Below, piece by piece: positions 43,580 through 64,000 of a DNA stretch of 64,000 nt. Under the pieces are notes generated by a model. It searched no databases. It worked only from the letters and a program-made list of their open reading frames with translations, and was not told the DNA's origin. Positions within the stretch are counted from its first letter, which is position 1. Each line of letters starts with the position of its first letter. Position numbers and translations under genes: made by a program. Source of the DNA: Thalassococcus sp. S3 (GTDB taxonomy: Bacteria > Pseudomonadota > Alphaproteobacteria > Rhodobacterales > Rhodobacteraceae); the NCBI RefSeq assembly GCF_004216475.1, contig NZ_CP022304.1, positions 31,561-95,560 on the forward strand, written 5' to 3'.

Positions 43580-44370
43580 CTCACCGCCTGCTTCGGGCTC
43601 AGTATCGAACGTTGCTCGCAATAGGTGACCACCGTCTCTACATCCTGAGCTACCAGATCGACACCCGTCAGCCTTTGGACATTCGCAATATAGTTAAGAA
43701 CGATCCCGCCCAAGGCAAATACCGGACGGCGGGACAGCCGTAGTCTCGTTTGTTTAACAATTTGACCAATAGAATCAAGGGCACCGGCTTTCGAACAACT
43801 GAACATCACCGCATCGAAGGATCCGCTTGCACAATGCGCGACAACTTCGTCTTCTTTTTCACCGCACATGACGTCAACACTGGCACCCCTTCGGCGCAAC
43901 TGGGCCGCCGCGACGAACCCGCCCAATGTATGCTGATCGCTTTCGGGAATCACCATCAGCACGTGCAGGGGAACATCCGAGATCGGGCAAAGCGACGTGT
44001 CCGAATAGGCCACTTCTGTCAAAAGGCTCTGAAGACGCACCGTTGCGATCGTGACATCGGCAAAACCAAGCTCGCTTGCCACCCATTTCTCTCCGATCCG
44101 ACGGGCCGAGACCGGGATGTAGTCGTTTATGATCGCATCGTCACCAAGGTGAAATCCTCTCAGCTCCTCCAGCATATCGGTCGCGTTGAAGGGGCCACGG
44201 GCCACGATTCGCTTGTCGAGAAGACTACTTATATAGGGCCTCACCGCGCCCCGCTGACTTTCGGCCTGTCTTGCGCTCAGCACCGACACGACCTGCATCG
44301 CCAAATCGCCCACAGCCGACAGTGATGGGGGCTGTTCCGGTGCTCCTCCACTCAGACATTCATGTGTCAT
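43576..44370 (-). CDS. aerR: Cobalamin-binding antirepressor AerR/PpaA
   Basis: This protein of 264 residues has a helical N-terminal half including GEKWVASELGFADVTIATVRLQ, followed by a B12-binding domain. The cobalamin-ligand His is H147 in PESDQHTLGGF, matching the key His of Rhodobacter AerR/PpaA. AerR binds hydroxy-B12 in light and counteracts PpsR/CrtJ, so photosystem synthesis depends on light as well as oxygen. It is first in the aerR-ppsR operon and divergent from bchF. The intergenic region contains two TGT-N12-ACA sites. Confidence 0.94.
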   Translation of the reverse strand: MTHECLSGGAPEQPPSLSAVGDLAMQVVSVLSARQAESQRGAVRPYISSLLDKRIVARGPFNATDMLEELRGFHLGDDAIINDYIPVSARRIGEKWVASELGFADVTIATVRLQSLLTEVAYSDTSLCPISDVPLHVLMVIPESDQHTLGGFVAAAQLRRRGASVDVMCGEKEDEVVAHCASGSFDAVMFSCSKAGALDSIGQIVKQTRLRLSRRPVFALGGIVLNYIANVQRLTGVDLVAQDVETVVTYCEQRSILSPKQAVR

Positions 44371-44671: not shown

Positions 44672-48071
<3,400 letters not shown>

Positions 48072-48093
48072 TCTTGGCATAGGGGGAGGCCGC

Positions 48094-51000
48094 ATGCCCG
48101 GCTACCGCGTGGTCATCGTCACGCTGGACAGCCACGCGGCAGGCCCCGCTGAACGCGCGATGGAGACGCTGTCGCGTGACTATCCGGGTCTGAGCCTTTC
48201 GATCCATGCCGCCGCCGAGTGGGGCGAGACGCCGGGCGCCTTCGAGGCTGCGGAAGAGGCGGTGCTGAACGCCGATATCGTCGTCGCCAACCTGCTGTTT
48301 CTCGAAGAGCACGTCGCCCGCATCCTGCCCGCCCTACGCGCAAGGCGCCCCGATTGCGACGCGATGATCGGGGTCGTAGCCGATGCCGATATCGTCAAGC
48401 TGACCCGGATGGGCGCCCTGGACATGTCGGCGCCGGCCACGGGGGCGATGAAGTTTCTCAAGAAGCTGCGCGGCTCGTCCAAGCCCTCGTCCAATTCCGG
48501 CCAGAAGAACATGACGCTGCTGCGCCGGCTGCCGAAGATCCTGAAATACATCCCCGGCAAGTCGCAGGACCTGCGCGCGTGGTTTCTGGTGATGCAATAC
48601 TGGCTGGGCGGGTCGGACGACAATGTCGAGGCGATGATCCGCTTCCTGCTGAACCGCTATGCCAAGGATACCGGCTGGAAGGCCGCTCCCGAAGCGGCAG
48701 CACCGGTGGAGTACCCCGATGTCGGCCTCTACCACCCCGACCTGCCGGAACGGATCACTACCGATCCCGACCGTGTGCCCGGACCGGCCGAGCCCAAGGC
48801 CACGATCGGTCTTTTGATGATGCGCTCCTACGTGCTGAGTTCGGACACCGCGCATTACGACAGCGTGATCCGCTCCTTTGAGGCGCGGGGCATCCGCGTA
48901 TTACCGGCCTTTGCCGGGGGTCTGGACGGTCGGCCCGCGATCTCCTCTTACTTTCAGGGCGAGCATGGCGCGAAAATCGACGCGATGGTCTCGCTGACCG
49001 GCTTCAGCCTTGTGGGTGGTCCGGCCTATAATGACAGCGACGCGGCGGTGGATGTGCTGTCGGAGCTGGATATCCCCTATCTCGCCGCGCATCCGCTGGA
49101 ATTCCAGACGCTGGGCCAATGGGCAGCGTCGGCCTCCGGCCTTGGGCCCATCGAGACGACGATGCTGATCGCCCTGCCGGAGCTTGACGGGGCCACCAAC
49201 CCGACCGTTTTCGCGGGACGCCACGGGCCCGAAGGATGCCTCGGCTGCAAATACACCTGCAGCGCGGGATGTGAGCCCAAGGCCATGGCCCCCTGCCCCG
49301 AGCGGATCGACCAGCTTGTTCTCCGGGCCGAGAAACTGGCGCTTCTGCGACGCTCGCAAGTGGCGGAGCGGAAGCTGGGGATCATCCTCTTTGGCTTCCC
49401 GCCCAATGCAGGCGCTGCGGGAACCGCTGCTTACCTCAGCGTTTTTGAAAGCCTTTTCAACACCTTGCATGCCCTGAAAGCGCAAGGCTACGATCTGGAG
49501 CCGCCCGAAAGCGTCGAGGCCCTTCGCGAGGCCGTGTTGAAAGGTACCGCCCAGCAATACGGCCAAGAGGCCAACGTGGCCGACCATGTCAGCGCCGATC
49601 AGATCGTCGCGCAAACGCCGTGGCTTGACGAGATCGAGGCGCAATGGGGTCCGGCCCCCGGCCGTATCCAGTCGGACGGGCGCGGTGTGTTCATTCTGGG
49701 CGCGCAATTCGGCAAGGTCTTCATCGGGCTTCAGCCGACATTCGGCTATGAAGGCGACCCGATGCGGCTGCTCTTCGAGAAAGGCTTTGCCCCGACCCAT
49801 GCCTTTACCAGCTTCTACCTTTGGCTGAAGAACACGTTCCAGGCCGACGCACTCCTGCATTTCGGCATGCATGGCGCGCTGGAATTCATGCCCGGCAAGC
49901 AGGCGGGCCCCTCGGGCGCGGACTGGCCTGACCGCCTGATCGGCGACATGCCGAACGTCTATCTCTATGCCTCCAACAATCCCAGCGAAGCGACGCTGGC
50001 CAAGCGGCGCACCAATGCGGTGACCATCACTCATCTGACCCCGCCTCTGGCTGCCTCCGGTCTCTACAAGGGGTTGGCGGAGTTGAAGGACAGCCTGACG
50101 CGCTGGCGGGGCCTGGCACCGCACGCACCTGAGCGCGGCGAGCTTGAGGCACTGATCGCCGAGCAGGCCGAGGCCGTGGATATGGGCGGGGCGGATGCCG
50201 AAACGCTCTGGCTGAAGCTTCTGGAGACCGAAGACGCGCTGATCCCCGATGGGCTGCATGTAGTGGGCCAGCCGCTGAGCGACATTGCGCGCAGCGAATA
50301 TCTCGACGTGATCGCGGATGCCGATCCCGAGACCCGCGCACGGGTCGAACGCCTGCTGATGCAGGAGACGGAGTTGCGCGCGATGATGCGGGCGCTGGAC
50401 GGGCGGTACATTCCGCCGGTGCCGGGCGGCGATCTGATTCGCTCGACCGAGATCCTGCCGACGGGGCGCAATATCCACGCCTTCGATCCGTTCCGGATGC
50501 CCACGGAATATGCCTGCCGCGATGGCGAGAAACAGGCGCAATTGCTGCTCGACACCCATCCCACCCTGCCGCGATCGGTGGCACTGGTGCTGTGGGGGTC
50601 GGACAACATCAAATCGGATGGCGGCCCCATCGCACAGGCGCTGGCGCTGATGGGCTGCAAGACACGGTTCGACAGTTTCGGGCGGCTCGCCGGAGCGGAT
50701 CTGATCCCGCTGGACGAGCTGGGTCGGCCCCGGATCGACGTGATCATGACGCTGTCGGGGATCTTCCGCGATCTGCTGCCCTTGCAGACCCGCATGCTGG
50801 CCGAGGCGGCGCTGAAATGCGCCGAAGCCGATGAGCCGCTGGAGCAGAACTTCATCCGTGCCCACGCGCTGGCCTATGCAGAGAAGATGGGCGTGGACAT
50901 GAAGACCGCAGCACTTCGCGTCTTTTCCAACGCCGAAGGGGCCTATGGGTCGAACGTGAACGTGCTGGTCGACAGCAGTGCGTTCGGGGATGAGGACGAA

Positions 51001-51639
51001 CTGGCCGACGCCTACGAGGCGCGCAAGAGCTTTGCCTACGGCGTCGATGGCAAGGCGGCGGCGAACCCGAAGCTGCTGCAAAGCGCGCTGGCGGATGTCG
51101 AACTGGCCTATCAGAACCTCGAATCCGTCGAATTGGGGGTCACCACGGTGGACCATTACTTCGACACGCTGGGCGGCATCTCCCGCGCGGTGAAGCGGGC
51201 GCGGGGCGAAGAGGCGGCGGTCTATATCAGCGACCAGACACGGGGCGGTACCGGCAAGGTGCGGACCCTCAAGGATCAGGTGGCGCTTGAGACCCGCTCG
51301 CGCAGCCTGAACCCGAAGTTTTTCGAGGGCCTGCTCAAGCATGGCTCGGAAGGTGTGCGCCAGATCGAGGCGCAGGTGACGAACACGATGGGCTGGTCGG
51401 CCACGACCGGCCAGGTGGATGACTGGGTTTATCAGCGGATCAGCGAGACCTTCGTGCTGGATGACGAGATGCGCCAGCGGCTTGCCGATCTGAACCCGAC
51501 GGCCTCGTCGCGGATGGCGAACCGTCTGCTGGAAGCCCACGACCGGAACTACTGGTCCCCCGATGCGGACACGCTCGCAGCACTTCAGGATGCGGCGGAT
51601 GCGCTGGAGGATCAGCTTGAAGGGATCGCGGCGCAATGA
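48094..51639 (+). CDS. bchH: Magnesium chelatase subunit H
   Basis: This large protoporphyrin-binding subunit of Mg-chelatase has 1181 residues, the usual length. It has the CobN/Mg-chelatase fold with FGMHGALEFMPGKQAGPSGADWPDRLIGDMPNVYLYASNNPSEATLAKRR in the middle and DQTRGGTGKVRTLKDQVALETRSRSLNPKFFEGLLKHGSEGVRQIEAQVTNTMGWSATTGQVDDWVYQ near the C-terminus. ATG 48094 is preceded by GGGGGAGG; ATG 48061 inside bchB would add 11 residues. The ATPase partners BchI and BchD are not in this window. Confidence 0.97.
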   Translation: MPGYRVVIVTLDSHAAGPAERAMETLSRDYPGLSLSIHAAAEWGETPGAFEAAEEAVLNADIVVANLLFLEEHVARILPALRARRPDCDAMIGVVADADIVKLTRMGALDMSAPATGAMKFLKKLRGSSKPSSNSGQKNMTLLRRLPKILKYIPGKSQDLRAWFLVMQYWLGGSDDNVEAMIRFLLNRYAKDTGWKAAPEAAAPVEYPDVGLYHPDLPERITTDPDRVPGPAEPKATIGLLMMRSYVLSSDTAHYDSVIRSFEARGIRVLPAFAGGLDGRPAISSYFQGEHGAKIDAMVSLTGFSLVGGPAYNDSDAAVDVLSELDIPYLAAHPLEFQTLGQWAASASGLGPIETTMLIALPELDGATNPTVFAGRHGPEGCLGCKYTCSAGCEPKAMAPCPERIDQLVLRAEKLALLRRSQVAERKLGIILFGFPPNAGAAGTAAYLSVFESLFNTLHALKAQGYDLEPPESVEALREAVLKGTAQQYGQEANVADHVSADQIVAQTPWLDEIEAQWGPAPGRIQSDGRGVFILGAQFGKVFIGLQPTFGYEGDPMRLLFEKGFAPTHAFTSFYLWLKNTFQADALLHFGMHGALEFMPGKQAGPSGADWPDRLIGDMPNVYLYASNNPSEATLAKRRTNAVTITHLTPPLAASGLYKGLAELKDSLTRWRGLAPHAPERGELEALIAEQAEAVDMGGADAETLWLKLLETEDALIPDGLHVVGQPLSDIARSEYLDVIADADPETRARVERLLMQETELRAMMRALDGRYIPPVPGGDLIRSTEILPTGRNIHAFDPFRMPTEYACRDGEKQAQLLLDTHPTLPRSVALVLWGSDNIKSDGGPIAQALALMGCKTRFDSFGRLAGADLIPLDELGRPRIDVIMTLSGIFRDLLPLQTRMLAEAALKCAEADEPLEQNFIRAHALAYAEKMGVDMKTAALRVFSNAEGAYGSNVNVLVDSSAFGDEDELADAYEARKSFAYGVDGKAAANPKLLQSALADVELAYQNLESVELGVTTVDHYFDTLGGISRAVKRARGEEAAVYISDQTRGGTGKVRTLKDQVALETRSRSLNPKFFEGLLKHGSEGVRQIEAQVTNTMGWSATTGQVDDWVYQRISETFVLDDEMRQRLADLNPTASSRMANRLLEAHDRNYWSPDADTLAALQDAADALEDQLEGIAAQ

Positions 51640-51671
51640 GGCGGCGCGGTTGGGAGATGGATGACGTTGCA

Positions 51672-51738
51672 GGGGGGCCAGCCCCCCATCGGCCAAGGGC
51701 CGATTCCCCCCGGAGTTTATCCGGCAAGATGAAAGAGG
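51672..51738 (+). repeat. GC-rich palindromic repeat element between bchH and bchL
   Basis: GGGGGGCCAGCCCCCC (51672-51687), then the hairpin ATCGGCC/GGCCGAT (51688-51694 with 51698-51704), then TCCCCCCGGAGTTTAT (51705-51720) and a purine-rich tail. It shares its plan and 16-mer with the copy inside bchB. It lies in a 130-bp gap of the superoperon and might affect mRNA stability or translation. Confidence 0.75.
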
Positions 51739-51751
51739 GAGCACGTTCTGA

Positions 51752-52669
<918 letters not shown>

Positions 52670-53353
52670 GTGACCGCCTACGACCAGACACTCGCCCGCG
52701 TCGAGACCTATTTCGACAGGACCGCGACCCAGACCTGGGCGCGGCTCACCAGCGATGCGCCGGTGTCGAAAGTGCGCGAGACAGTGCGGGCCGGGCGCGA
52801 CCGGATGCGTGACCTGATTCTGTCCCGCCTGCCTTCCGATCTGAGCGGGCAGCGGGTGCTGGATGCGGGTTGCGGCGCCGGGCAGATGTCGGTCGAGCTT
52901 GCACGGCGGGGGGCGGAGGTCGTGGCCTGCGATATCTCGCCCTCGCTGGTGGACATCGCCAAGCTGCGCACCCCTCCGGAATTGCTGCGGCGGATCACTT
53001 ATGTGGCGGGCGATATGCTGGATGCCACCCATGGCCGTTTTGACCATGTCGTCGCGATGGACAGCCTGATCTACTACACCGGCTCGGACATTGGCGCAGC
53101 CCTGAAGCGGCTGGAGCCGCGCACGCAAGGCAACATCGTATTCACCGTCGCCCCACGCACGCCGCTTCTGATGACGATGTGGTATGCGGGCAAGCTCTTC
53201 CCCCGATCAGACCGCTCCCCCGTCATGATCCCGCATGATCACGGGCGTCTGGCGCGGGACGTGAAGGCACAGGGAGTCGGGCGGCTTTTGCGGCCCGTCG
53301 ATCAGATCACTTCGGGCTTTTACATTTCTCAGGCCATGGAGCTTCGAGGATGA
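52670..53353 (+). CDS. bchM: Magnesium protoporphyrin IX O-methyltransferase
   Basis: This SAM-dependent methyltransferase of 227 residues makes Mg-protoporphyrin monomethyl ester, the substrate of the cyclase. The SAM-binding motif is VLDAGCGAGQMSVELA near 62-77, followed by VVACDISPSLVDIA. The C-terminus GVGRLLRPVDQITSGFYISQAMEL is conserved in BchM. It starts with GTG at 52670 immediately after the bchL stop, and its own stop overlaps the lhaA start (ATGA). Confidence 0.96.
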   Translation: MTAYDQTLARVETYFDRTATQTWARLTSDAPVSKVRETVRAGRDRMRDLILSRLPSDLSGQRVLDAGCGAGQMSVELARRGAEVVACDISPSLVDIAKLRTPPELLRRITYVAGDMLDATHGRFDHVVAMDSLIYYTGSDIGAALKRLEPRTQGNIVFTVAPRTPLLMTMWYAGKLFPRSDRSPVMIPHDHGRLARDVKAQGVGRLLRPVDQITSGFYISQAMELRG

Positions 53354-54780
53354 AGAACCGGCTCAAAGAGCTTTCCCTGTCCTGGCTGCCCTTCGCGGAT
53401 GCGGCCAGCGAGGATTTGCCGCTGAGCCAGATCCTGCGGCTCTCGCTGTTTCAGGTGTCGGTCGGCATGGCGTCTGTCATGCTGTTGGGCACGCTGAACC
53501 GCGTGATGATTGTCGAGCTGTCGGTGCCCGCGATGATCGTGGCGGTGATGATCGCGCTGCCCGTTCTGATCGCCCCCTTCCGCGCGCTTCTGGGCTTTCG
53601 GTCCGACACCTATCGCTCTGCCATCGGGTGGAAGCGGGTGCCCTACATCTGGTTCGGCTCTCTGTGGCAGTTTGGCGGGCTGGCGATCATGCCCTTTGCC
53701 CTTCTGGTGCTGGGTGGCGATGTCGTGCATGAGCTTCCCTTTGCCGGAGAGGTCCTGGCCGGGCTGGCCTTCCTGATGACCGGCCTTGGCCTGCACATGA
53801 CCCAGACCGCTGGGCTGGCGCTGGCAAGCGACCGGGCAACGGATGAGACGCGGCCCCGGGTTGTCGCACTGCTATACGTCATGTTCTTGGTGGGCATGGG
53901 GCTTTCGGCGGTGATCATCGGCTGGCTTCTGTCGGATTACTCCGATCTGCAACTGATCCGCGTCGTTCAGGGCACTGCTGTCGTGGGCGTGCTGCTCAAC
54001 CTGATTGCGCTGTGGAAGCAGGAACAGGTCCGCCCCATGAGCCGGAAGGAGCGGGAGGCGCCCCGCCCCCGCTTTGCCGATGCCTGGGCCGATTTCGCGC
54101 GCGGTGGCCGCGCCGGGCGGCTGCTGGCCTGTGTCTTTGTGGGCACCATGGCCTTCAGCATGCAGGACGTGCTGCTGGAGCCTTACGGCGGTGAGATCCT
54201 TGGCCTCTCGGTCAGCGCCACCACGCTTCTGACCGCAATGTGGGCTGGCGGAGCGCTTCTGGGCTTTGCCTATGCCGGGCGGCAGATGGGGCGTGGGTCC
54301 AACGCGTACCGTCTGGCGGGCCTTGGCGTTCTGGCGGGCGTCTGGGCGTTTTCGATGGTGATCTTCGCCGCACCCATGAATTCCGCGCCTCTCTTCTTTG
54401 CTGGCGCGGGCCTGATCGGCTTTGGCGCGGGCCTCTTTGCCGTCTCCACGCTGATGGCCGCGATGACCATGCCCGCCGAAGGGCTCGCCGGTCGTGGCCT
54501 CGCGCTCGGTGCCTGGGGTGCGGCACAGGCCACCGCCGCCGGTGTTGCCATCGCGCTTGGCGGCACGCTGCGCGACTGGATTGGCGCGCTCGCCATGCAA
54601 GGCGCGTTCGGCGAAGGGATGATGAGCCCGTCCGTCGGTTACTCCTTCGTCTATCACACTGAAATCGCTCTTCTTTTCGTCACACTCGCCATCTTGGGAC
54701 CGCTTGTGCGGACCTCCGGGGCGGCGTCACTTCAACAACCGGGACCGGCCAGATTGGGCCTGGCCGATTTCCCGACCTGA
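53350..54780 (+). CDS. lhaA: Light-harvesting complex 1 assembly protein LhaA (PucC-family MFS)
   Basis: This 476-residue membrane protein has about twelve helices and belongs to the PucC/LhaA family. It shares GTLNRVMIVELSVPA, LLGFRSDTYRSAIGWKRVPYIW, SMQDVLLEPYGGEILGLSVS and LALGAWGAAQATAAG with the family and with the bch2 product of block 1. It assists insertion of bacteriochlorophyll into LH1. It lies between bchM and puhA as in Rhodobacter; 28 bases separate it from puhA. Confidence 0.95.
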   Translation: MKNRLKELSLSWLPFADAASEDLPLSQILRLSLFQVSVGMASVMLLGTLNRVMIVELSVPAMIVAVMIALPVLIAPFRALLGFRSDTYRSAIGWKRVPYIWFGSLWQFGGLAIMPFALLVLGGDVVHELPFAGEVLAGLAFLMTGLGLHMTQTAGLALASDRATDETRPRVVALLYVMFLVGMGLSAVIIGWLLSDYSDLQLIRVVQGTAVVGVLLNLIALWKQEQVRPMSRKEREAPRPRFADAWADFARGGRAGRLLACVFVGTMAFSMQDVLLEPYGGEILGLSVSATTLLTAMWAGGALLGFAYAGRQMGRGSNAYRLAGLGVLAGVWAFSMVIFAAPMNSAPLFFAGAGLIGFGAGLFAVSTLMAAMTMPAEGLAGRGLALGAWGAAQATAAGVAIALGGTLRDWIGALAMQGAFGEGMMSPSVGYSFVYHTEIALLFVTLAILGPLVRTSGAASLQQPGPARLGLADFPT

Positions 54781-54808: not shown

Positions 54809-55579
54809 ATGGTAAACGCATTTTTCGGAGAGTTCGATCTCGCCAGCCTCACGCTCTGGCTGTTCTACGGCTTCTTCGCGCTGCTGATCATCTACATCCA
54901 GCGCGAGAACATGCGCGAAGGCTATCCGATGGAGGATGACGACGGCAACGTGGCCCCGAACCAGGGCCCCTACCCCCTGCCCGAGGACAAGACCTTCAAA
55001 TTGCCCCATGGCCGGGGTGAGGTGACCGTGCCCAGCGGACAGAACCCGGACCGCAAGGATCTGGCCCTGCGCCGGACGTCGAAAGCCAACGGCTTCCCGA
55101 TGGAACCGACAGGCGATCCGATGCTCGACGGTGTCGGCCCCGCCTCCTGGGCGCCCCGCCGGGACGTGCCGGAACTGGACGGCCACGGCCACCCCAAGAT
55201 CGTGCCGATGTCGGCCAACGAGGCCTTTGCCGTTGCCGCCGGACGTGATCCACGCGGCCTACCCGTGATGTCCGGCGACGGAGAGATCGTGGGCGAGGTC
55301 ACCGATATGTGGATCGACGAGCCCGAGCAGCTGGTGCGCTATCTTGAATACAAGCTCGACCCGAAATGGGGCGAGGGCACCCGTCTGGTCCCGATGACGC
55401 TGGTGCGGATCTGGTCGAACCAGGTGAAGATCAAGTCGATCTATGCCAAGCATTTCGCCACCGTGCCGACTATCGCCTCCCCGCGTCAGGTCACGCTCCT
55501 CGAGGAGGAAAAGATCAGCGCCTATTACGGCGGCGGCAAGCTTTATGCCGACAGCAGCCGGCTTGAGCCGCAGATCTGA
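54809..55579 (+). CDS. puhA: Photosynthetic reaction centre subunit H
   Basis: The H subunit has 256 residues, with a single N-terminal membrane helix (LASLTLWLFYGFFALLIIYIQRENMREGYP, residues 10-39) and a cytoplasmic domain containing the PRC-barrel. It caps the L-M core, which is encoded by pufLM elsewhere. Conserved stretches include KTFKLPHGRGEVTVP, IVPMSANEAFAVAAGRDPRGLPV and EEKISAYYGGGKLYA. ATG 54809 follows an AAGGAGGG ribosome site. A hairpin follows its stop (55607-55626). Confidence 0.97.
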   Translation: MVNAFFGEFDLASLTLWLFYGFFALLIIYIQRENMREGYPMEDDDGNVAPNQGPYPLPEDKTFKLPHGRGEVTVPSGQNPDRKDLALRRTSKANGFPMEPTGDPMLDGVGPASWAPRRDVPELDGHGHPKIVPMSANEAFAVAAGRDPRGLPVMSGDGEIVGEVTDMWIDEPEQLVRYLEYKLDPKWGEGTRLVPMTLVRIWSNQVKIKSIYAKHFATVPTIASPRQVTLLEEEKISAYYGGGKLYADSSRLEPQI

Positions 55580-55606
55580 TGACGACGGTTCCCGCATATC
55601 ACCTGT

Positions 55607-55626
55607 GCTGCCCTGCAAAGGGCAGC
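55607..55626 (+). other. Hairpin downstream of puhA
   Basis: GCTGCCC (55607-55613) pairs with GGGCAGC (55620-55626) around the loop TGCAAA in the 126-bp puhA-puhB gap. No T-run follows, so mRNA stabilisation of the puhA segment is more likely than termination. Confidence 0.45.
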
Positions 55627-55705
55627 CGCCGGGCGCGCCACGCGCGGCAGCAAAGACATGCGGGGCCCAAGGAAGCCACTTACATTCAGAAGGGGGATAC
55701 TCGCC

Positions 55706-56341
55706 ATGTCTCACGATGATTTCGCCGTCGAGCCCGTCAAAGGGCTCCCCGAAGTGCCGCCCGAGAACGAGGAAATCCTCTGGCAGGGCCGCCCCTCCAC
55801 CTGGGCCATCCTCCGCGATGCGCTGAGCCTGAAATGGGTCGTGGCCTATTTCGCCTTCCTCACCGGCTGGCGATTTGTCAGCGTGATCGACCTGATGCCG
55901 CTGGGCCAGGCCATCGGTGCGTCGATACCCTTCGTGATCCTCGGCGGGATCGTGGTGGCGCTTCTCTGGCTGGTGGCCTTCGTGCAGGCGCGGGCCACGG
56001 TCTACACCGTGACCAACCGCCGCGTTGCCATGCGGGTGGGCGCGGCCCTTACCGTGACACTGAACCTGCCCTACACACAAATCGCCAATGCGATGCTGGA
56101 CCTGCGCCGTGATGGCACCGGAACCATCGCGTTCGAGACGCTGGGCGAGACGCAGCTCAGCTATCTGACCCTCTGGCCCCATATCCGCCCCTGGCGGATG
56201 AACCCGACCCAGCCCGCCTTGCGCGGCATCCCCGAGGCCGAAAGGATCGCGGCCCTGATCTCCGACGCGGCCGAAGCACGGGTGTCCACTCCGCAGGTGG
56301 AACGTAAAGCGCCGTCCGGTGCGGCCGTGGCAGCGGAGTGA
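55706..56341 (+). CDS. puhB: Photosynthetic complex assembly protein PuhB
   Basis: This membrane protein of 211 residues has about three hydrophobic segments and a bPH2-like domain. PENEEILWQGRPSTWAILRDAL near residue 20 and TVYTVTNRRVAMRVG near 107-121 are typical of PuhB. In Rhodobacter it helps reaction-centre assembly. ATG 55706 follows an AGGGGG site; the frame stays open upstream but only into the untranslated leader. It is followed closely by puhC. Confidence 0.93.
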   Translation: MSHDDFAVEPVKGLPEVPPENEEILWQGRPSTWAILRDALSLKWVVAYFAFLTGWRFVSVIDLMPLGQAIGASIPFVILGGIVVALLWLVAFVQARATVYTVTNRRVAMRVGAALTVTLNLPYTQIANAMLDLRRDGTGTIAFETLGETQLSYLTLWPHIRPWRMNPTQPALRGIPEAERIAALISDAAEARVSTPQVERKAPSGAAVAAE

Positions 56342-56346
56342 GCGTG

Positions 56347-56820
56347 ATGTCCGACACCACCCAGCGCCCGCCCCGCATCCGCGCCGATCGCGACGAGCTG
56401 GTGCCCCGCATGATGGTCCGCGCGATGTTCGCGCTGGTCGTCACCTGCCTGGTCCTCGTTGCCGCCGCGCGTCTCACCGACCGCCCGCTGGAACACACGC
56501 CCGCCGACATGCCCGTGATCAAGGAACGGGTGATCTTCCTCGACGGCGACATGTCCGGTGCCGCGCAGATCTACGACGAAAACCACGTCCTGATTGCCGA
56601 CCTCACACCAGAAGCCGGCGGTTTCATCTCCGGCGTCAAGCGTGTGCTCGACCGTGAGCGCCTGAAACACCGGGTCCCCGCCGACGGCCCTGTCCTTTTG
56701 CAACTGCGCGAGGGCAACCGGCTTTCGATCCACGACCCGTCCACGAATTGGTCAGCCGAGCTCATGGGCTTTGGCGCCACAAACCTCCGCAGCTTTGCCA
56801 GGCTGCTGGAACAACCGTAA
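56347..56820 (+). CDS. puhC: Photosynthetic complex assembly protein PuhC
   Basis: This protein of 157 residues has one N-terminal membrane anchor (MVRAMFALVVTCLVLVAAARL) and a periplasmic domain ending HDPSTNWSAELMGFGATNLRSFARLLEQ, typical of PuhC. It supports light-harvesting and reaction-centre organisation. ATG 56347 has GGAG eight bases upstream; a GTG at 56338 overlapping the puhB stop is an alternative that adds three residues. Confidence 0.92.
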   Translation: MSDTTQRPPRIRADRDELVPRMMVRAMFALVVTCLVLVAAARLTDRPLEHTPADMPVIKERVIFLDGDMSGAAQIYDENHVLIADLTPEAGGFISGVKRVLDRERLKHRVPADGPVLLQLREGNRLSIHDPSTNWSAELMGFGATNLRSFARLLEQP

Positions 56821-56842
56821 CCCGAACATAAGGAAGCCACTT

Positions 56843-57139
56843 ATGGGACTACTGACAAAGGACTTCGAGCGTGCGCCCTGCACCGTTGAGATCAGTCACA
56901 AGTTCGAAAGCCTGCACGCGCATGTGCGGTTCAACAACGGGGCGGTGATCTACCCCGGCGACGAGGTGAAAGTGCACGGGCCCGAGATCATGGCCCCCTT
57001 CGGCGAGGTTGTCATCGAAGAGCGCGAGGCCACGATCGTCCGCGCCTCGAAGCTGGAACAGCTCTGGACCCGCCTCACAGGCGATTTCGAAGTGATGGAG
57101 CTTTGCGAATTCTCGTTCTCCGAGGAGGTGACGCTATGA
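56843..57139 (+). CDS. Uncharacterised small protein of the puh-acsF region
   Basis: This soluble protein of 98 residues has no signal or membrane helix and is predicted mostly beta (KFESLHAHVRFNNGAVIYPGDEVKVHGPEIMAPFGEVVIEEREATIVRA). It ends in an acidic tail, CEFSFSEEV. Its stop overlaps the acsF start (ATGA), so it is co-translated with the cyclase. The position between puhC and acsF matches small conserved ORFs in photosynthesis clusters of related bacteria, but I know of no assigned function. A role as a cyclase or photosystem assembly accessory is a reasonable guess. Confidence 0.85.
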   Translation: MGLLTKDFERAPCTVEISHKFESLHAHVRFNNGAVIYPGDEVKVHGPEIMAPFGEVVIEEREATIVRASKLEQLWTRLTGDFEVMELCEFSFSEEVTL

Positions 57140-58260
57140 ATGCCCCCCTGAAACACACCGCCGACGCCACCACCGTCGAAGAAGGCCTCGCCATCCAGGA
57201 GGAGCAGGCCAAGTTCGACAGCGAGGCGGCCACCGCCGTGGCGATGCAGAACACTCTGCTGACCCCGCGTTTTTACACCACAGATTTCGATGAGCTGGAT
57301 GCCATCGACGTCTCCCCCGTCCGCGAGGATTGGGACAAGCTGATCGCCCAGATGGTCAGCGACCCCAACAAGGGCCATTTCAAGAAAAACGAGGACTGGG
57401 ACCATGTCGACTGGGACGGCATGGAGCCGGAGCTAAAGAAGGAATTCATCGACTTCCTGATCTCCTCCTGCACCGCCGAATTTTCGGGCTGCGTGCTTTA
57501 CAAAGAGATGAAGCGGCGCGGCAACAATGCCGACATCACCCAGCTCTTCCAGCTCATGGCCCGTGACGAGGCCCGGCATGCCGGCTTTATCAACGACGCC
57601 CTGCGCGAGGCGGGTGTGGCGGTGAACCTCGGCTTTCTTACGCAAAAGAAGAAATACACCTATTTCCGGCCGAAATTCATCTATTACGCCACTTATCTGT
57701 CGGAAAAGATCGGCTATGCCCGCTATATCACGATCTTCCGGCACCTTCAGGCCAATCCCGAACACCGGTTCCACCCGATCTTCAAGTGGTTCGAGGAATG
57801 GTGCAATGACGAGTTCAGCCATGGCGAGGCCTTCGCCCTGCTGATGAAGACCGAACCCAAGCTCACGCAGGGGTTCAACGTCTACTGGATCAAGTTCTTC
57901 CTGACGGCGGTCTATGCCACGATGTATGTGCGCGACCACCAGCGGCCCGCCTTCCACAAAGCTCTGGGTGTCGATCCCGACTGGTATGCGCATGAGGTCT
58001 TCACCAAGACATCGAAGCTGAGCGAGCAGATCTTCCCGATCACGCTCGATATCGAGCATCCGCGCTGGCAGCCCAACCTCGAAGCTCTGCACCGCGCCAA
58101 CGTGCAGATCGCCGAAGGCAAGAAGCAGGGCGGCATGGGCGGCAAGGTGAAGGAATGGACCGGCTCGCTGAAAGCGGCCCGCGCCTTCCTGTCGCTGCTG
58201 ACGATCCCGGCGAACAAGCACCAGGTGCCCGCCTCCACCCGTCTGGAGCCGGCTTACTGA
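57136..58260 (+). CDS. acsF: Mg-protoporphyrin IX monomethyl ester oxidative cyclase (aerobic)
   Basis: This diiron enzyme of 374 residues forms ring E using molecular oxygen. The two ferritin-type motifs are EFSGCVLYKEMKRR with DEARHAGF near 150, and EWCNDEFSHGEAF near 226-238, supplying the Glu and His ligands. The presence of acsF and the absence of bchE in this window fit an aerobic phototroph. It is coupled to the upstream 98-residue ORF by ATGA and separated from puhE by 160 bp containing a strong hairpin. Confidence 0.97.
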   Translation: MNAPLKHTADATTVEEGLAIQEEQAKFDSEAATAVAMQNTLLTPRFYTTDFDELDAIDVSPVREDWDKLIAQMVSDPNKGHFKKNEDWDHVDWDGMEPELKKEFIDFLISSCTAEFSGCVLYKEMKRRGNNADITQLFQLMARDEARHAGFINDALREAGVAVNLGFLTQKKKYTYFRPKFIYYATYLSEKIGYARYITIFRHLQANPEHRFHPIFKWFEEWCNDEFSHGEAFALLMKTEPKLTQGFNVYWIKFFLTAVYATMYVRDHQRPAFHKALGVDPDWYAHEVFTKTSKLSEQIFPITLDIEHPRWQPNLEALHRANVQIAEGKKQGGMGGKVKEWTGSLKAARAFLSLLTIPANKHQVPASTRLEPAY

Positions 58261-58420: not shown

Positions 58421-59245
58421 ATGACCCCGTGGATCGCCGCCCTTGCCGCGCTTTTCATCTGGTGGTTCTCCACCGGGGCCATCCTGATGCTGATCAAGCA
58501 CGCCGATCGGCGGGGGCCCAAAGCGCGGCAAATGGCGGTGATCGCAAGCCTTCCGATGCTCATCCTCGGCATCTGGGGCTATCTGGCCACGCTCGACAGC
58601 ACCACCGTCGCCGCCGCCTATATCGGCTTTCTCTCCGCTCTGGCCATCTGGGGCTGGATCGAAACCGCCTTTCTTGCGGGCATCATCACCGGCCCCATCA
58701 CCAAGCCCTGCCCCGAAAACGTGCCCGAATGGGAACGCTTCCTGCGGGCCTGGGGCACCATCGCCTGGCATGAGATGCTGCTCGTCGGGGTGATGATGCT
58801 GATGATCCTCTATGGCTGGGGCCATGCAAACCCCTTCGGCATGTGGACCTTCATCATCCTCTTCGGGGCCCGTGTCTCGGCCAAGCTGAACCTCTATTTC
58901 GGCGTTCCCAAGATCAACACCGAGTTTCTGCCCAAGGCTCTGGCGCACCTGCCCAGCCATTTCCGCATTCGCCGGCTGAACTGGATCTTCCCGATCTCGG
59001 TCACTGTCCTCACCTTTGCTGTCGCCTGCTGGCTCGAACGCCTGCATTCGGCCGACACAATGGGCGACGCCATCGGCTTCGCCCTTCTCACCGCCATCAC
59101 CGCGCTCGCTCTGCTCGAACACTGGCTGATGGTCCTGCCGCTCCCCGACGAGCGGCTTTGGCGCTGGATGCTGCCGCAAGAGGGCACCGCGCCCAATCAA
59201 CAACATAAGCTACCTAAAAGACCGGAGGACGCCCATGGACTTTGA
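58421..59245 (+). CDS. puhE: Photosynthetic complex assembly protein PuhE
   Basis: This membrane protein of 274 residues has about seven hydrophobic segments. [19 protein letters not shown] near 14-32, [25 protein letters not shown] and [21 protein letters not shown] are characteristic of PuhE. It follows acsF after a structured gap; ATG 58421 has an ACGGAGG site. It overlaps the hemA start by 11 bases. In Rhodobacter PuhE modulates reaction-centre and bacteriochlorophyll levels. Confidence 0.92.
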
Positions 59246-60449
59246 CGCCCTGTTCCAATCCCAGCTCGACACCCTCAAGGACGAGGGCAATTACCGCATC
59301 TTTGCCGAGCTGGAGCGTAAATCAGGCCAGTTTCCCCGCGCACGCTGCCATGACGGCGAGGCGCCCGATGAGGTGACCGTCTGGTGTTCCAACGACTATC
59401 TGGGCATGGGCCAGCACCCCAAGGTGACCCAGGCCATGAAGGACGCCATCGACAGCTGCGGCGCCGGCGCCGGCGGGACGCGCAACATCTCCGGCACCAA
59501 CCATGCGCACAAGCTGCTGGAGGCCGAACTGGCCGATCTGCATGGCAAGGAGAGTGCTCTGCTCTTCACATCCGGCTATGTGTCGAACTGGGCCGCGCTC
59601 TCTACCCTCGGCAGCCGTCTGCCCGATGCGGTGATCCTGTCGGACGAGCTGAACCATGCCTCCATGATCGAAGGCATCCGGCATGCGCGCTGCAACAAGG
59701 TCATCTGGAAGCACAACGATCCCGAAGACCTTGACCGCAAGCTGGCCGCCCTGCCCGCCAATGCCGCCAAGATCGTGGCCTTTGAAAGCGTCTATTCCAT
59801 GGACGGCGACATCTGCCCGATGGAAGAAATCATCGAGGTTGCGGAAAAGCACGGTGCCATGACCTATCTCGACGAGGTCCATGCCGTTGGCCTCTACGGC
59901 CCCCGCGGCGGTGGCGTGTCCGAAGAGCTTGGCCTCGCTGACCGTATCACCCTGATCGAAGGCACGTTGGGCAAGGCCTATGGCGTCGTGGGCGGCTATA
60001 TCACCGGCTCTGACGCTCTGTGCGACTTCATCCGCTCCTTCGCGTCCGGCTTCATCTTCACCACCGCCCTGCCCCCTGCCGTGGCCGCCGCAGCGCGGGT
60101 GTCGATCCAGCACCTCAAAAACTCCGATGTAGAGCGTAACATGCAGCGCGAACGGGTCGCTTATCTGCGCAAGCGCCTCGATCAGGAGGGCATCCCGCAT
60201 ATGGACAATCCCAGCCACATCATCCCCGTGATGATCAAGGATCCGGTCAAATGCCGCATGATCGCCGATTACCTGATGCAGCAATATGGCATCTACGTGC
60301 AGCCCATTAACTATCCCACCGTGCCCAAGGGGACCGAGCGGCTGCGCTTCACCCCTTCCCCCCTGCACGATCAGGATGATATCGAGCATCTGGTGATGGC
60401 CTTGAAAGAATTGTGGAAACAATGCGCGATTTCTCACGCTGTCGCCTAA
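59235..60449 (+). CDS. hemA: 5-aminolevulinate synthase
   Basis: This PLP enzyme of 404 residues condenses glycine and succinyl-CoA, the first step of the tetrapyrrole pathway in alphaproteobacteria. [28 protein letters not shown] and the PLP Asp in [13 protein letters not shown] are present, and the Schiff-base Lys lies in [15 protein letters not shown] near residue 245. Its place at the end of the bch-puh superoperon lets PpsR co-regulate precursor supply with bacteriochlorophyll synthesis. A second chromosomal copy is likely but not visible here. Confidence 0.97.
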
Positions 60450-60526: not shown

Positions 60527-60970
60527 ATGAACCGTACCATCGCCACGTTGATCGCGGGGCTTCTGGCCGCACCTGTTTTCGCAGACGGCCACGCTTCCGG
60601 TGACGCAGCTGCTGGTGAAAAGGCATTCAACAAGTGCAAATCGTGCCACATGATCGTGGCCGATGACGATACCGAAATCGTCAAGGGTGGCCGCACCGGC
60701 CCCAACCTTTACGGTATCGTCGGTCGTCAGGCCGGCACGATCGAAGGCTTCCGCTATGGCGACGATCTGGTCGCCGCCGGTGAAGCGGGGCTGGTCTGGG
60801 ACGAGGCGAACTTCGTCGAATATGTTCAAGACCCCCGCGCCTTCCTGCGTGCCTATCTTGATGACAGCAAGGCCCGCTCGAAAATGTCGTTCAAACTGCG
60901 TGACGGTGGGGCGGATGTGTATGCCTACCTCGCAAGCGTTGGCCCGGCAGAGGAAGCAGCCACCAACTAA
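60527..60970 (+). CDS. cycA: Cytochrome c2-like soluble c-type cytochrome
   Basis: This periplasmic protein of 147 residues has a signal peptide (cleavage near VFA-D, residue 19) and one heme site, CKSCH at residues 37-41. The distal ligand is M120 in SKMSFKL. The insertions typical of large cytochromes c2 are present (GGRTGPNLYGIVGRQAGTIEGF and the YGDDLVAAGEAGLVWD loop). It would carry electrons from the bc1 complex to the reaction centre. A GGAGG site precedes the ATG and a terminator follows. It is the gene after hemA in the same direction. Confidence 0.92.
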   Translation: MNRTIATLIAGLLAAPVFADGHASGDAAAGEKAFNKCKSCHMIVADDDTEIVKGGRTGPNLYGIVGRQAGTIEGFRYGDDLVAAGEAGLVWDEANFVEYVQDPRAFLRAYLDDSKARSKMSFKLRDGGADVYAYLASVGPAEEAATN

Positions 60971-60997: not shown

Positions 60998-61025
60998 GGT
61001 CGCAGCCCCGTGCTGCGGCCTTTTT
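60998..61025 (+). terminator. Rho-independent terminator after cycA
   Basis: GGTCGCAGC pairs with GCTGCGGCC (one G-U pair) around CCCGT and is followed by TTTTT at 61021-61025. It ends the photosynthesis transcript 28 bases after the cytochrome stop. Confidence 0.88.
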
Positions 61026-62401
61026 CATTCTTCACGCGCCGCATCGCGGGCGGCCCAGGCGTCAAGATAGGCGTCCCCGCCAAGTGCTGCGACCAGCGGG
61101 TCCAGCAACCCGTTATAGGCTTTCCACGTCCCAAGACCACTTTGGTTGATCCCCTCCCGTACCTGGATCAAAGACGCCGTGCGGATCCCGCCCGGCCGTC
61201 TCTCGGGCGTCAGGCACGCATCGCACCAGTCCAGCCGCGTGTGATCCAGAAGGGCGGCGATGGCCGCGGGCGGGTCCTGCACCAGGGCGCGGTAGGATTG
61301 GATCCGCACCCGCTCTCCCAGCTTTTCCCGGTAATCCTGCGTGGCTTCCTCAACAATCCGGGTCAGATGACCGATCCAGTCGAACCGTTTCGAAAAGCCA
61401 TGCGTGTCGTGGAAATGCGTTGTGAAATTCGACAGCCCCGTGTCCAGCGGATGCCGGTCCATCACGACAAACCGTGCCTCGGGCCATAAATGCGCCGCGT
61501 ATCCGATGTTCAGGCAATCCATCGGCATCTTGCTGACAATCACCGGTGCATCCGACAGAAGCTCGGCGCGCTCCAGAAAATGCTGCCGCAAGGCCTTCCA
61601 TTGCGCTTCATCTAGGCCCTGCCACCCCCAGGCATCACCGGCAAGGTGTCGGGCCGCTGCAAGGCTTTCCTGCAGCGCATAACTCTCCCCGATGGATTGC
61701 ACCTGAGGATGACAGGCCAGGATGCTTTCCGTCAGCGTCGTACCGCTTCTTGGCAGGCCCACCACAAAGATCAACCTTGCACCACCGCTCGCAGGCTTCG
61801 GCGCATGGTAAAGCGCCTTCTGCGCCTCCAGCAGCGCCTCCATCGCGCCTGGATGGTATTGCCCCGGGCTCAGGGATTTCGCGCGGGAGAAACAGTGCAA
61901 GGCCGCGCGAGGCCGCTCCGCGCGGTCCTCGATCCGGCCCAGGGCGTTCCACGCAACCGCGCGCTCGCCGCTCGGATAGCCGGCATTCCGGGTGATCTGC
62001 CGCAGCAGACGCGCCCGGCGCCCGTCCCGCTGAAAGGGCGCAAGCCGGTTCAGGGCCGCCAGCGCGTGGGCCGATCTGGGCTTGAGCTTCACCGCCTGCT
62101 CATAGGCATGGGCCGCCCCCTCCCGGTCCCCCAGCAGCAGGGCCATGGCCCCTGCCCTGCCCCAGGCCTGCGGGTCGTCCGGCCAGTGTTGAGAGATCAC
62201 GCGCAGCAGCGACAGCGCGGTCTTTCCATCGCCGAGGGTCCGGTAACAGGTCGCCGCCTGATCCAGAACCTGACGGTCCAGCGGATCGATCTCAAGCCAT
62301 TGCAACGCCTCCGCCAGGGCTGCCTTGACCTGACCGGTCTCAATCTTCTCCTGAATGCTGCGGTGATGGGTCGGGATTGTCGCCTGCGCCTGACCTGACA
62401 T
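61025..62401 (-). CDS. TPR-sulfotransferase fusion protein
   Basis: This protein of 458 residues has an N-terminal TPR region (IETGQVKAALAEALQWLEIDPLDRQVLDQAATCYRTLGDGKTALSLLR and following repeats, to about residue 200). A C-terminal sulfotransferase domain follows, with the PAPS-binding loop FVVGLPRSGTTLTESIL near residue 220, the catalytic-helix segment IGESYALQESL and the 3'-phosphate site VIVSKMPMDCLN. The substrate is unknown (carbohydrate or protein). It is convergent with cycA, sharing the terminator region. ATG 62401 is preferred to 62431. Confidence 0.9.
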   Translation of the reverse strand: MSGQAQATIPTHHRSIQEKIETGQVKAALAEALQWLEIDPLDRQVLDQAATCYRTLGDGKTALSLLRVISQHWPDDPQAWGRAGAMALLLGDREGAAHAYEQAVKLKPRSAHALAALNRLAPFQRDGRRARLLRQITRNAGYPSGERAVAWNALGRIEDRAERPRAALHCFSRAKSLSPGQYHPGAMEALLEAQKALYHAPKPASGGARLIFVVGLPRSGTTLTESILACHPQVQSIGESYALQESLAAARHLAGDAWGWQGLDEAQWKALRQHFLERAELLSDAPVIVSKMPMDCLNIGYAAHLWPEARFVVMDRHPLDTGLSNFTTHFHDTHGFSKRFDWIGHLTRIVEEATQDYREKLGERVRIQSYRALVQDPPAAIAALLDHTRLDWCDACLTPERRPGGIRTASLIQVREGINQSGLGTWKAYNGLLDPLVAALGGDAYLDAWAARDAAREE

Positions 62402-62459
62402 GCTCTCTCTGCCCTCTCGATACGGGCACAAGCCTTATCGGGGGAGCATAAAGGCCCGG

Positions 62460-62879
62460 TTAATCCTCAAACGGATTGTAGAGATCGATCCCCGCGCCGT
62501 CGAAATCGCGCAAGTTGCGTGTGGCCACACTTGCCGCATGAACAAGGGCCGTGGCGGCGATCATCAGATCGCTCTGCCCCGGTGTCCGCCCCGCTTGCCG
62601 GGCCTGGGCCGCCATCATGCCGTAAGCCTCCGCCGCCGCCAGATCGAAGGGCAGAATGGCGCCCTCGAAATCCTCGTCCAGCATGCCGGTCACAGCCTCG
62701 TCGAGGGCCCGGCGTCGGCGGCCTTGCGGCAGGCACGCCACGCCATACCGCAGCTCCGCCACCGTGATCACGCTAAGCACCAGCCGCTGCGTCCCCTGCG
62801 CGGCAAACCAGTCCAGCACGGCCTGCGACGGGCGGGGCTTCATCAGCTCCGAAATGACATTGGTGTCCAGAAGGATCAT
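62460..62879 (-). CDS. PIN-domain toxin (VapC/FitB type ribonuclease)
   Basis: This PIN-domain protein of 139 residues has the acidic catalytic residues D5 (LLDTNVISE), E42 (TVAELRYG) and D104 (QSDLMIAA). The GRTPGQSDLMIAATALVH pattern is typical of FitB-type toxins. It should cleave RNA unless held by its antitoxin. Its start overlaps the antitoxin stop by four bases. Its place beside a plasmid-type replicase suggests a maintenance role. Confidence 0.92.
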   Translation of the reverse strand: MILLDTNVISELMKPRPSQAVLDWFAAQGTQRLVLSVITVAELRYGVACLPQGRRRRALDEAVTGMLDEDFEGAILPFDLAAAEAYGMMAAQARQAGRTPGQSDLMIAATALVHAASVATRNLRDFDGAGIDLYNPFED

Positions 62880-63121
62880 GCGTCCGGTGCGATCGGATCA
62901 GGTAACCTGTCCCGGTTTGGCAGCGTCAGATCCGTTTCCAGGCCCGCAAATCTTGCCCGGATGCTCTGGACGACATCTGCCGCGCTCCGGTCTTCGGCCT
63001 GCATCCGCTCGGCCAGCACCGCGCGCACTTCCGCCTCCATCGACCGGCCATTGCGGGCCGCCGACTGACGCAGGAAATCGTGCAAATCGGTATCCACGTT
63101 TCGGATGGTCAATGTGGCCAT
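62876..63121 (-). CDS. FitA/VapB-type ribbon-helix-helix antitoxin
   Basis: This protein of 81 residues has the Arc-type DNA-binding N-terminus MATLTIRNVDTDLHDFLRQSAARNGRSMEAEVRAVLAERM and a disordered acidic tail that would bind the toxin. ATG 63121 follows a good GGAGGA site; a start at 63142 would add seven residues. It is coupled to the toxin by ATGA. A consensus promoter sits just upstream and is probably autorepressed by the complex. Confidence 0.9.
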   Translation of the reverse strand: MATLTIRNVDTDLHDFLRQSAARNGRSMEAEVRAVLAERMQAEDRSAADVVQSIRARFAGLETDLTLPNRDRLPDPIAPDA

Positions 63122-63143
63122 ATCATTCCTCCGGATCACCACA

Positions 63144-63174
63144 ATTATATGGGCGTCGCCTGCAGTGCTGTCAA
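63144..63174 (-). promoter_or_regulatory. Consensus promoter of the toxin-antitoxin operon
   Basis: On the minus strand TTGACA (63174-63169) and TATAAT (63149-63144) are both perfect matches to the sigma-70 boxes, with a 19-bp spacer. They lie immediately after the replicase stop codon and before the antitoxin gene. Confidence 0.7.
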
Positions 63175-63176
63175 TG

Positions 63177-63857
63177 CTAGCAGATGATGCGCACCTCGCT
63201 TATGCTGTCGTCCACCGCCTGACATGCCCTCAGCAGGCGCTCTTCCAGATGGGTCTGCACATAGGCGCCGTGAAACCGGCTGGGTGCCTTCAGGCTCAAC
63301 CGTCCCCCTGCCCTTTCCGCCCGGCTGAGACCTGCGAACCAAGAGGCGTAAAGCCCCTCGTCCTCTGCATGCAGCACGCCCTGCGCCAACGCCCAGTCCG
63401 TCCCCTCCGACATGTCCGGCGGCTTGATCGCCCCTTTCACCGGCAAGGCCACTACCTTTGGCTGCTCCTCGCTTTGGCCCATCCGCAACTCGAAATCCGG
63501 TCCGACCTTCGGCCATTCGCTCGCCGTCTCCTCCAGCATCCGGTCCAGCGCAAGACGGTATTCCGTGACATGCCCGCGCGCGCCCTGCCGTTTGACAACC
63601 AGCCAGCCCATCGCGCGCAATCGCGCCATCTCCCGCTTCACCGTCCGCTCATCGACGGACCACAGCCGCGCAATCTCGCGCTGCCCCACGGCGAGCTCAT
63701 CCCGCGCCCAATTGTACCGCGCGGTGATCAGGGTCATCAGCCTCAGAACGCGACGCTGATCATGTTTGTCCCGCGCAAGCGCATAAGCGCCAAGTGCTGT
63801 CAGCACGTCATATTTGCGCGCAGCCGCATGGCGGCCCACGGGTTTTGTGGAAAGCAT
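63177..63857 (-). CDS. DnaA-like plasmid replication initiator (Rhodobacterales type)
   Basis: This protein of 226 residues begins near VGRHAAARKYDVLTALGAYALARDKHDQRRVLRL. A winged-helix segment follows (VGQREIARLWSVDERTVKREMARLRAMGWLVVKR). The C-terminal region EDEGLYASWFAGLSRAERAGGRLSLKAPSRFHGAYVQTHLEERLL resembles DnaA domain I. That combination matches the DnaA-like replicases of Rhodobacterales extrachromosomal elements. I chose ATG 63857 (GAGGG five bases upstream); the frame extends to an ATG at 63995. If correct, the window is part of a plasmid or chromid. Partition genes would be expected just outside the right edge. Confidence 0.78.
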   Translation of the reverse strand: MLSTKPVGRHAAARKYDVLTALGAYALARDKHDQRRVLRLMTLITARYNWARDELAVGQREIARLWSVDERTVKREMARLRAMGWLVVKRQGARGHVTEYRLALDRMLEETASEWPKVGPDFELRMGQSEEQPKVVALPVKGAIKPPDMSEGTDWALAQGVLHAEDEGLYASWFAGLSRAERAGGRLSLKAPSRFHGAYVQTHLEERLLRACQAVDDSISEVRIIC

Positions 63858-64000
63858 CACTGCCCTCGTTGTTCCGGCTGGCATTGGAAATGCGAGCTGC
63901 CTCAGTGACCGGGCGGGTTTGCCCCTGCGTTGCTGCGTTCCGGTCGTTTTTTCATCTCGTGCCCTGATTTGCGTCCTTAACCGCGATTCTGTCAAGCGCG

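Follow-up and report, generated by a model that had tools for sequence, protein, structure and literature searches.

We are highly confident that the DNA described here belongs to a low-copy, probably circular photosynthesis plasmid of the Rhodobacterales, with a DnaA-like type I replicase (Rep) and ParAB, predicted parS sites within the coding sequences of bchO and bchD to which ParB would bind, a probably stabilising VapBC-type pair, and likely fossils of such sites left in relatives after reintegration. Photosynthesis plasmids with DnaA-like replicases have already been described, and the relevant passages of Brinkmann 2018 (PMC6052148) and Liu 2019 (PMC6739100) bear out the earlier note's statement that photosynthesis clusters sit on DnaA-like plasmids in a few species of the Roseobacter group. 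The plasmid type itself is known, and the new part is the proposed embedded, decaying centromere. The main texts of these two papers contain neither "palindrom" nor "centromer", and our searches of the open-access literature turned up no description of photosynthesis genes that contain centromere sites.

The window, that is, the whole stretch of 64,000 nucleotides analysed, covers positions 31561–95560 of contig C2 (no N, 63% GC), which belongs to an assembly of 5.0 Mb. Since C2 is just 95,560 bp long, these are its final 64 kb, and the right edge of the window is the contig end. The extension past position 64000 proposed in the earlier note does not exist in the contig, and the contig end fits the contig's own start. 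The window contains the following features (window positions unless marked C2).

519..532 (C2 32079): parS-like palindrome GTCCCCGCGGGGAC within the gene of an ABC-transporter ATPase, far from the module; the window has no other exact copy
7415..11327, plus strand: bchG, pucC-like gene, bchP and idi (T. omphalii comparison)
12689..22894, both strands: exopolysaccharide (EPS) block with epimerases, glycosyltransferase, sugar transferase, Polysacc_synt_2, YjbH and YjbF
42176..44214, minus strand: ppsR and ppaA regulators (T. omphalii comparison)
44708..54780, plus strand: bchF, N, B, H, L, M and lhaA (T. omphalii comparison)
54809..57136, plus strand: puhA, puhB, puhC and a small ORF (T. omphalii comparison; puhB by position and ORF only)
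57151..58260, plus strand: acsF, aerobic cyclase (its ORF is open from 57103 on, which leaves the first residues uncertain)
58421..59245, plus strand: puhE (T. omphalii comparison)
59235..60449, plus strand: hemA (88% to T. omphalii)
60527..60970, plus strand: cycA-like cytochrome c (47% to T. omphalii), with which the right arm of the photosynthesis cluster ends
61025..62431, minus strand: TPR-sulfotransferase (cargo) between cycA and the toxin-antitoxin pair
62460..62879, minus strand: VapC/FitB-like PIN toxin (PIN, E 5e-15)
62876..63142, minus strand: FitA/VapB-like antitoxin, RHH (PF22513, E 5e-18)
63177..63857, minus strand: DnaA-like I replicase, 226 aa, with an N-terminal winged helix and a C-terminal DnaA domain I fold

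An Rfam match to the COG3860 cis-regulatory RNA (41958–42010, minus strand, 60.8 bits) lies between ppsR and the end of the ORF at 41295–41969. The bch/puh genes and the exopolysaccharide block named in the earlier note are both real, and the FitAB/VapBC-like pair that it placed at the right edge was recovered with the E-values listed. The RHH antitoxin gene precedes the PIN toxin gene on the minus strand with a 4-base overlap, and the VapBC-type pair would probably add post-segregational stability. The missing half of the photosynthesis cluster and parAB lie at the start of C2, outside the window. From its start, C2 carries the iterons, parA (335–1630), parB (1627–2703) and then, on the minus strand, bchO, bchD, bchI and crtA, followed by crtI, crtB and tspO and by crtC-F, bchCXYZ, pufQBALMC and dxs (by comparison with T. 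omphalii). The bch, crt, puf and puh genes (pufC type; puhB by position only) all reside on C2, one extrachromosomal replicon, and among all contigs of the 5.0-Mb assembly Photo_RC genes occur only there.

Joining the two ends of C2 places parAB beside the replicase and yields a rep–parA spacer of 477 nt with one inverted and three direct iterons at spacings of 18/21/32. In 17 other loci, the spacer measures 479–550 nt; the spacing is exactly 18/21/32 in 10 of these relatives and close to it in the remaining 7, which have at least one iteron copy missing in a two-mismatch scan or one base off. The same order of rep, parAB and the bch/hem flanks recurs on closed plasmids, so that the arrangement is not a matter of chance, and there the module sits at a conserved position with bchO on one side and the hemA side on the other. 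A scan of the whole contig found no tRNA or rRNA genes. Gene order and spacing at the end junction fit a probably circular replicon and, together with parAB, the type I replicase and the lack of tRNA and rRNA genes, uphold the likely photosynthesis plasmid of the earlier note, whose proposed checks on parAB beside the replicase, the replicase tree and rRNA genes have come out in its favour. A related cluster with a module does occur on a 1.07-Mb contig, which might suggest that C2 is part of a chromosome and became a contig of its own through misassembly; we consider this extremely improbable because the ends of C2, once joined, give an intact origin region whose spacing is conserved, tRNA and rRNA genes are missing, and size and gene order are those of closed plasmids.

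The replicase frame is open over 63177–63995 on the minus strand, and the ATG at 63857 is its most likely start because 113 of 120 homologues among the matches listed, its own row included, are 225–228 aa long. The winged helix and DnaA domain-I-like C-terminus ascribed to it in the earlier note agree with two sub-threshold Pfam matches, HTH_Crp_2 at the N-terminus and DnaA_N at the C-terminus, and with an AlphaFold model (pLDDT 86), which Foldseek superposed on DnaA domain I (4tps_D) with 1.3 Å over 73 columns and a TM-score by target length of 0.79; the model also matched MarR/CRP-type winged helices. The best E-value among these structural matches was just 1.2e-3. In a quick tree with long outgroup branches and with references of types I and II, the replicase fell within the DnaA-like I clade together with R. 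litoralis pRLO149_94, CP084962 and CP084953 and apart from the type II CP084961. CP084962 and CP084953 are assigned to DnaA-like I in Table 1 of PMC9025767, and so is the R. litoralis replicon in the part of Brinkmann 2018 (PMC6052148) that concerns it. The replicase has a single match in its own genome, and tblastn located relatives on 288 plasmid records; AcsF matches were found on 10 plasmid records, in 8 of which at least 80% of AcsF was covered. The winged helix of Rep would bind the iterons TGTCCCCCAAT between rep and parA, its DnaA domain I probably recruits host replication proteins, and ParA and ParB would partition the plasmid.

The palindrome GTCCCCGCGGGGAC, for which we use the label parS, occurs seven times in the 5.0-Mb assembly and all seven times on C2, against about 0.16 copies expected in 5 Mb from base composition. 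The copies are located at the following positions.

C2 311: origin
C2 1319: parA
C2 3185: bchO
C2 4360, 4729 and 4753: bchD
C2 32079: ABC ATPase gene

Six of the seven lie less than 5 kb from the origin (C2:311–4766). A de novo scan returned GTCCCCGCGGGGAC as the only 14-bp palindrome present in more than one copy on C2 (7) and on pDOK1-4-3 (10), and the structure model of ParB matches ParB/Noc/KorB/SopB folds. Being repeated near parAB and restricted to the replicon, with one of the seven copies outside the cluster, GTCCCCGCGGGGAC is likely the parS of the plasmid, i.e. its centromere signal. On C2, parB and bchO stand tail to tail with a 16-bp overlap, and because parB abuts bchO in this way the putative parS array enters the bchO and bchD coding sequences; the photosynthesis cluster would therefore double as the plasmid centromere. 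The gap after parB holds 9 of the 18 Alloyangia sites and 5 of the 9 Leisingera sites, and this contrast suggests that the sites of bchO and bchD likely lie in coding sequence because there is no room after parB. Rep or some other regulator of the plasmid might instead bind the palindrome, which would then act in replication or transcription rather than in partition, given that one copy is directly upstream of parA and that Rep has a winged helix. We judge this unlikely, since Rep has its own, separate conserved iteron array and the palindromes extend several kb beyond parB, as a centromere should, also past parB on the non-photosynthesis plasmids of Alloyangia and Leisingera.

The reading of the palindromes as parS implies that their DNA is itself under constraint. 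Synonymous shuffling of 22 module loci (300 runs) produced a mean of 0.89 and a maximum of 6 sites versus 64 observed, related loci being non-independent. Among 19 type I plasmid loci, chosen from one clade (Roseobacter-Tateyamaria), pairwise divergence at the three shared sites was 0.8%, 2.2% and 1.4% versus 36–37% for the genes. Of all 14-nt windows, those with the sites took ranks 2–3 of 1438 in bchD and rank 2 of 809 in bchO, behind nothing but these sites offset by a single base. The same 14-mer is read in frames 0, 1 and 2, as VPAGT, xSPRGQ or RPRGD. Because the sites are the best-conserved DNA and are read in three frames, the DNA itself is selected. A short, GC-rich motif in a replicon of 63% GC could in principle arise from constraint on the protein or the codons of bchD and bchO, with no function as DNA, on an ordinary photosynthesis plasmid. 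This explanation has very little probability in our view: besides the shuffles, the three frames and the conservation on the 19 plasmid loci, the bchO site falls in a loop where most module-less BchO have a gap, and none of the 112 distinct loci that lack type I parB has a site in the two genes. Chance or protein-driven palindromes were rejected on the shuffles, the three reading frames and this absence.

It is similarly hard to believe that the palindromes stem from a small repeat, mobile or REP-like, inserting into genes of these plasmids. The bchO site does correspond to a longer loop, with 7 residues in 36 of 42 module rows against at most 4 residues in 61 of 69 other module-less rows, and one C2 copy is distant from the module. 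However, the unit shared is just 14–16 bp with differing flanks; six of the seven C2 copies lie within 5 kb of the origin, likewise in T. omphalii, R. litoralis and R. ponti; site positions are common to different genera; and the letters of the sites have changed in concert in one Cognatishimia locus (L032). A mobile repeat was rejected as the source because there is no longer shared unit and the flanks differ. In L032, all four sites, coding and non-coding, read TTCCCCGCGGGGAA, the TT..AA variant found on the type I plasmids of Sulfitobacter and Pseudosulfitobacter. We had expected two ParB clades to match the two palindrome variants, but despite the concerted change in L032 no such clades were found, and the TA variant needs 3 changes on the ParB tree.

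The selected parS-like DNA accompanies the type I module well beyond this plasmid. GTCCCCGCGGGGAC was found in 6 of 13 plasmid records scanned. T. omphalii has 10 copies, R. litoralis 4 and R. ponti 6; on plasmids without photosynthesis genes, Alloyangia has 18, Leisingera 9 and P. inhibens 2. Apart from 2 of the 18 Alloyangia copies, all lie no more than a few kb from the module. GTCCCCGCGGGGAC was absent from the other seven records (S190, S. guttiformis, THAF37, S. alexandrii, S. pontiacus, Pseudosulfitobacter and Jannaschia M317), with the variant TTCCCCGCGGGGAA near the module instead in S. pontiacus (4 copies), Pseudosulfitobacter (3) and Jannaschia M317 (2). We then scored photosynthesis loci for module and sites. 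A first draw comprised the best 80 BchI loci from named genome records, which together with this plasmid and four named ones made 85 loci, 71 of them with complete bchI, bchD and bchO. The 22 module loci had 44 sites in bchD, 20 in bchO and none in bchI (S190 having none at all), and the 49 loci without a module had no site in the three genes. In a second draw, which took a single genome for each genus, R. litoralis BchO was searched against 394 genomes and the best 90 hits were kept (own included; pieces reaching 1.5–2.6 kb past bchO); sites were present in bchD or bchO in 11 of 12 loci with type I parB beside bchO versus 0 of 78 without. Within the genus Roseobacter, BchO was detected at E 1e-40 in 17 of 19 genomes, and sites tracked the module in 17 of 17 loci (13 with, 4 without).

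Pooling gave 193 loci, of which 171 were usable after 22 incomplete ones were dropped and 141 distinct after removal of 30 near-copies. GTCCCCGCGGGGAC or the TT..AA variant occurred in bchD or bchO in 28 of the 29 distinct loci with type I parB beside bchO, but in 0 of 4 with another module and 0 of 108 with none seen (0 of 112 together). The dropped incomplete loci include two (L041 and L098) with a site in bchD and no module in view, whose contigs end inside bchD. Several cases run contrary. The photosynthesis plasmids of S190, with a replicase outside type I, and S. guttiformis (RepB-III) are without GTCCCCGCGGGGAC, as is that of S. alexandrii, which is DnaA-like I according to a statement in Liu 2019 (PMC6739100) and falls in the PLSDB replicon cluster of the type II reference. 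A locus without module (L074) has one TTCCCCGCGGGGAA outside the scored genes, and one with type I parB beside bchO (L201, G116:C33:1-5941) has no exact site in bchD or bchO. In L201, the only exact palindrome is in parA, with a one-mismatch copy at 2296, and the site might be in decay or the module might be recent.

The plasmid resembles R. litoralis pRLO149_94, T. omphalii pDOK1-4-3 and R. ponti p1 in replicase type, parAB, module position and photosynthesis cluster, and it shares the order cycA side–rep–parA–parB–bchO–bchD–bchI–crtA with the closed pDOK1-4-3 (77.6 kb), with R. ponti p1 and with pRLO149_94. Past pufC, it has dxs, P1 peptidase, SDR, aldehyde dehydrogenase and ABC transporter genes in common with T. 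omphalii; nothing on C2 matches the glp, pan and DinB genes of the latter. Compared with the DnaA-like I photosynthesis plasmids, C2 adds the EPS block, the sulfotransferase and the VapBC-type pair, and its bchD and bchO, unlike theirs, fall closest to Aestuariivita-type clusters that lack a module. S. guttiformis pSD118 (RepB-III) and Sulfitobacter S190 have the module on the hemA side like C2, in S190 directly beside bchO, but differ from it in having another replicase and no GTCCCCGCGGGGAC. On the S190 plasmid (L011, 19303–22752), the replicase lies outside type I and groups with the type II reference on long branches, and GTCACC-type repeats are visible by eye in the spacer; a further module replacement at the same place is possible. 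A 29-kb stretch of Sulfitobacter sp. THAF37 pTHAF37_b (L013) holds only puhE, hemA and a truncated, unannotated acsF, and this plasmid may have lost its photosynthesis cluster. The plasmid of Jannaschia sp. M317 (L026, 3170–12423) is a composite replicon, in which a DnaA-like replicase lies next to another replication initiation protein and both have a parAB of their own.

A close precedent comes from repABC plasmids, where a palindrome serves as the partition anchor of one plasmid, according to a passage in PMC3910702, and where, as stated in parts of PMC9040568, there are multiple parS palindromes, some inside ORFs such as cas genes, proposed to be selected. As there, we find several palindromes near a Rhodobacterales replication module, some within coding sequence; the replicon type, the palindrome (repABC consensus GTTNNNNGCNNNNAAC) and the genes concerned (bchD and bchO versus cas genes) are different, and decayed copies on chromosomes do not feature in those parts of PMC9040568. 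By inspection, TGTCCCCGCGGGGACA does not conform to the consensus GTTNNNNGCNNNNAAC as given in PMC9040568.

When a cluster returns to the chromosome, rep–parAB would be lost and the embedded sites would decay to fossils, as the trees and the state of the sites suggest. In a careful tree of bchD and bchO with the site columns removed, with which quick trees agree for the rows in common, the module-less loci L140, L085 (R. cerasinus), L149, L154 and L047 fall inside the plasmid clade (24 rows, 100/100), L140 being sister to the R. litoralis plasmid copy (100/100). Forcing the 19 plasmid rows into one clade was rejected (AU p 2.6e-26), this group having been chosen after earlier trees. The contigs measure 4.13 Mb for L140, which we take to be probably Roseobacter denitrificans, 4.52 Mb for L149, 1.86 Mb for L047 and 0.76 Mb for L085. 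A search of the whole L140 genome found no exact palindrome and no replicase match. At the three shared sites, L140 reads APAGT (3 mismatches), APAGT (2) and SPQEQ (4); R. cerasinus retains TDPQGQ (4 mismatches) in BchO, with 6 and 7 mismatches in bchD; L047 has 3 mismatches at one bchD site and 11 and 8 elsewhere; L149 (8, 5, 5) and L154 (5, 6, 8) have little or no trace. The minima over the other module-less rows are 6, 5 and 6 mismatches (68–69 rows, near-copies included).

Between L140 and R. litoralis, 3 of 14 bases differ in each site, which is the gene rate (18–21%), and the nested module-less copies differ from the plasmid sites by 15–79% on average, with genes at 33–41%, versus 1–2% for plasmid sites among themselves. 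Near-matches with at most 3 mismatches were not significant against synonymous shuffles in L140 (184/500) and reached a lower value in L047 (15/500), while L085 and L149 have no such near-match; given the result for L140, the fossil argument rests on position and tree. A BchO loop of 6 or 7 residues also occurs outside the plasmid clade, in the module-less L048, L123, L129, L131, L136 and L137, so that loop length alone is no fossil. Remnants of rep or parAB were not detected in the ten module-less loci scanned (tblastn, E 0.01). Near bchO of L156, there is DNA like the R. litoralis cycA–rep spacer (82% identity over 308 bases). A contig of 1,074,209 bp (L155, G397:C10:980000-995000; 2 tRNA genes in about 319 kb sampled) carries a photosynthesis cluster together with palindromes and a type I module that is intact; this may be a photosynthesis plasmid that has entered a chromosome and was caught before decay. 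The decayed sites at shared places in nested module-less clusters are likely fossils of reintegration, which suggests that the chromosomal photosynthesis genes of some relatives were once on such plasmids. With somewhat less assurance than for the plasmid itself, we favour the fuller account in which bchO and bchD serve as plasmid centromere, ParB-site DNA reshaped their loops (the VPAGT and SPRGQ inserts), and the fossils record several separate returns from plasmid to chromosome, that of R. denitrificans included.

The plasmid's own cluster has a history of its own. Its bchD and bchO group with module-less Aestuariivita-type clusters (98/97 in the careful bchD and bchO tree), one on a 2.2-Mb contig and the others on contigs of 70–296 kb, in which no fossil was found at the site positions. 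Its bchO site and one bchD site nevertheless occupy places used by the Roseobacter and Tateyamaria plasmids. Either the Aestuariivita-type clusters lost all traces or the cluster recombined.

Whether the patchy phototrophy of the Rhodobacterales reflects loss or plasmid-borne transfer is debated, and the reintegration case in Brinkmann 2018 (PMC6052148), in the part that presents it, rests on tree nesting. The embedded sites offer an independent marker: they are intact on plasmids, have decayed at homologous places in some of the nested clusters on chromosomes, and were not found elsewhere. The plasmid ancestry of a chromosomal cluster could thus be readable from one or two genes. The embedded sites also suggest why the photosynthesis cluster stays tied to the plasmid and why the module keeps its position.
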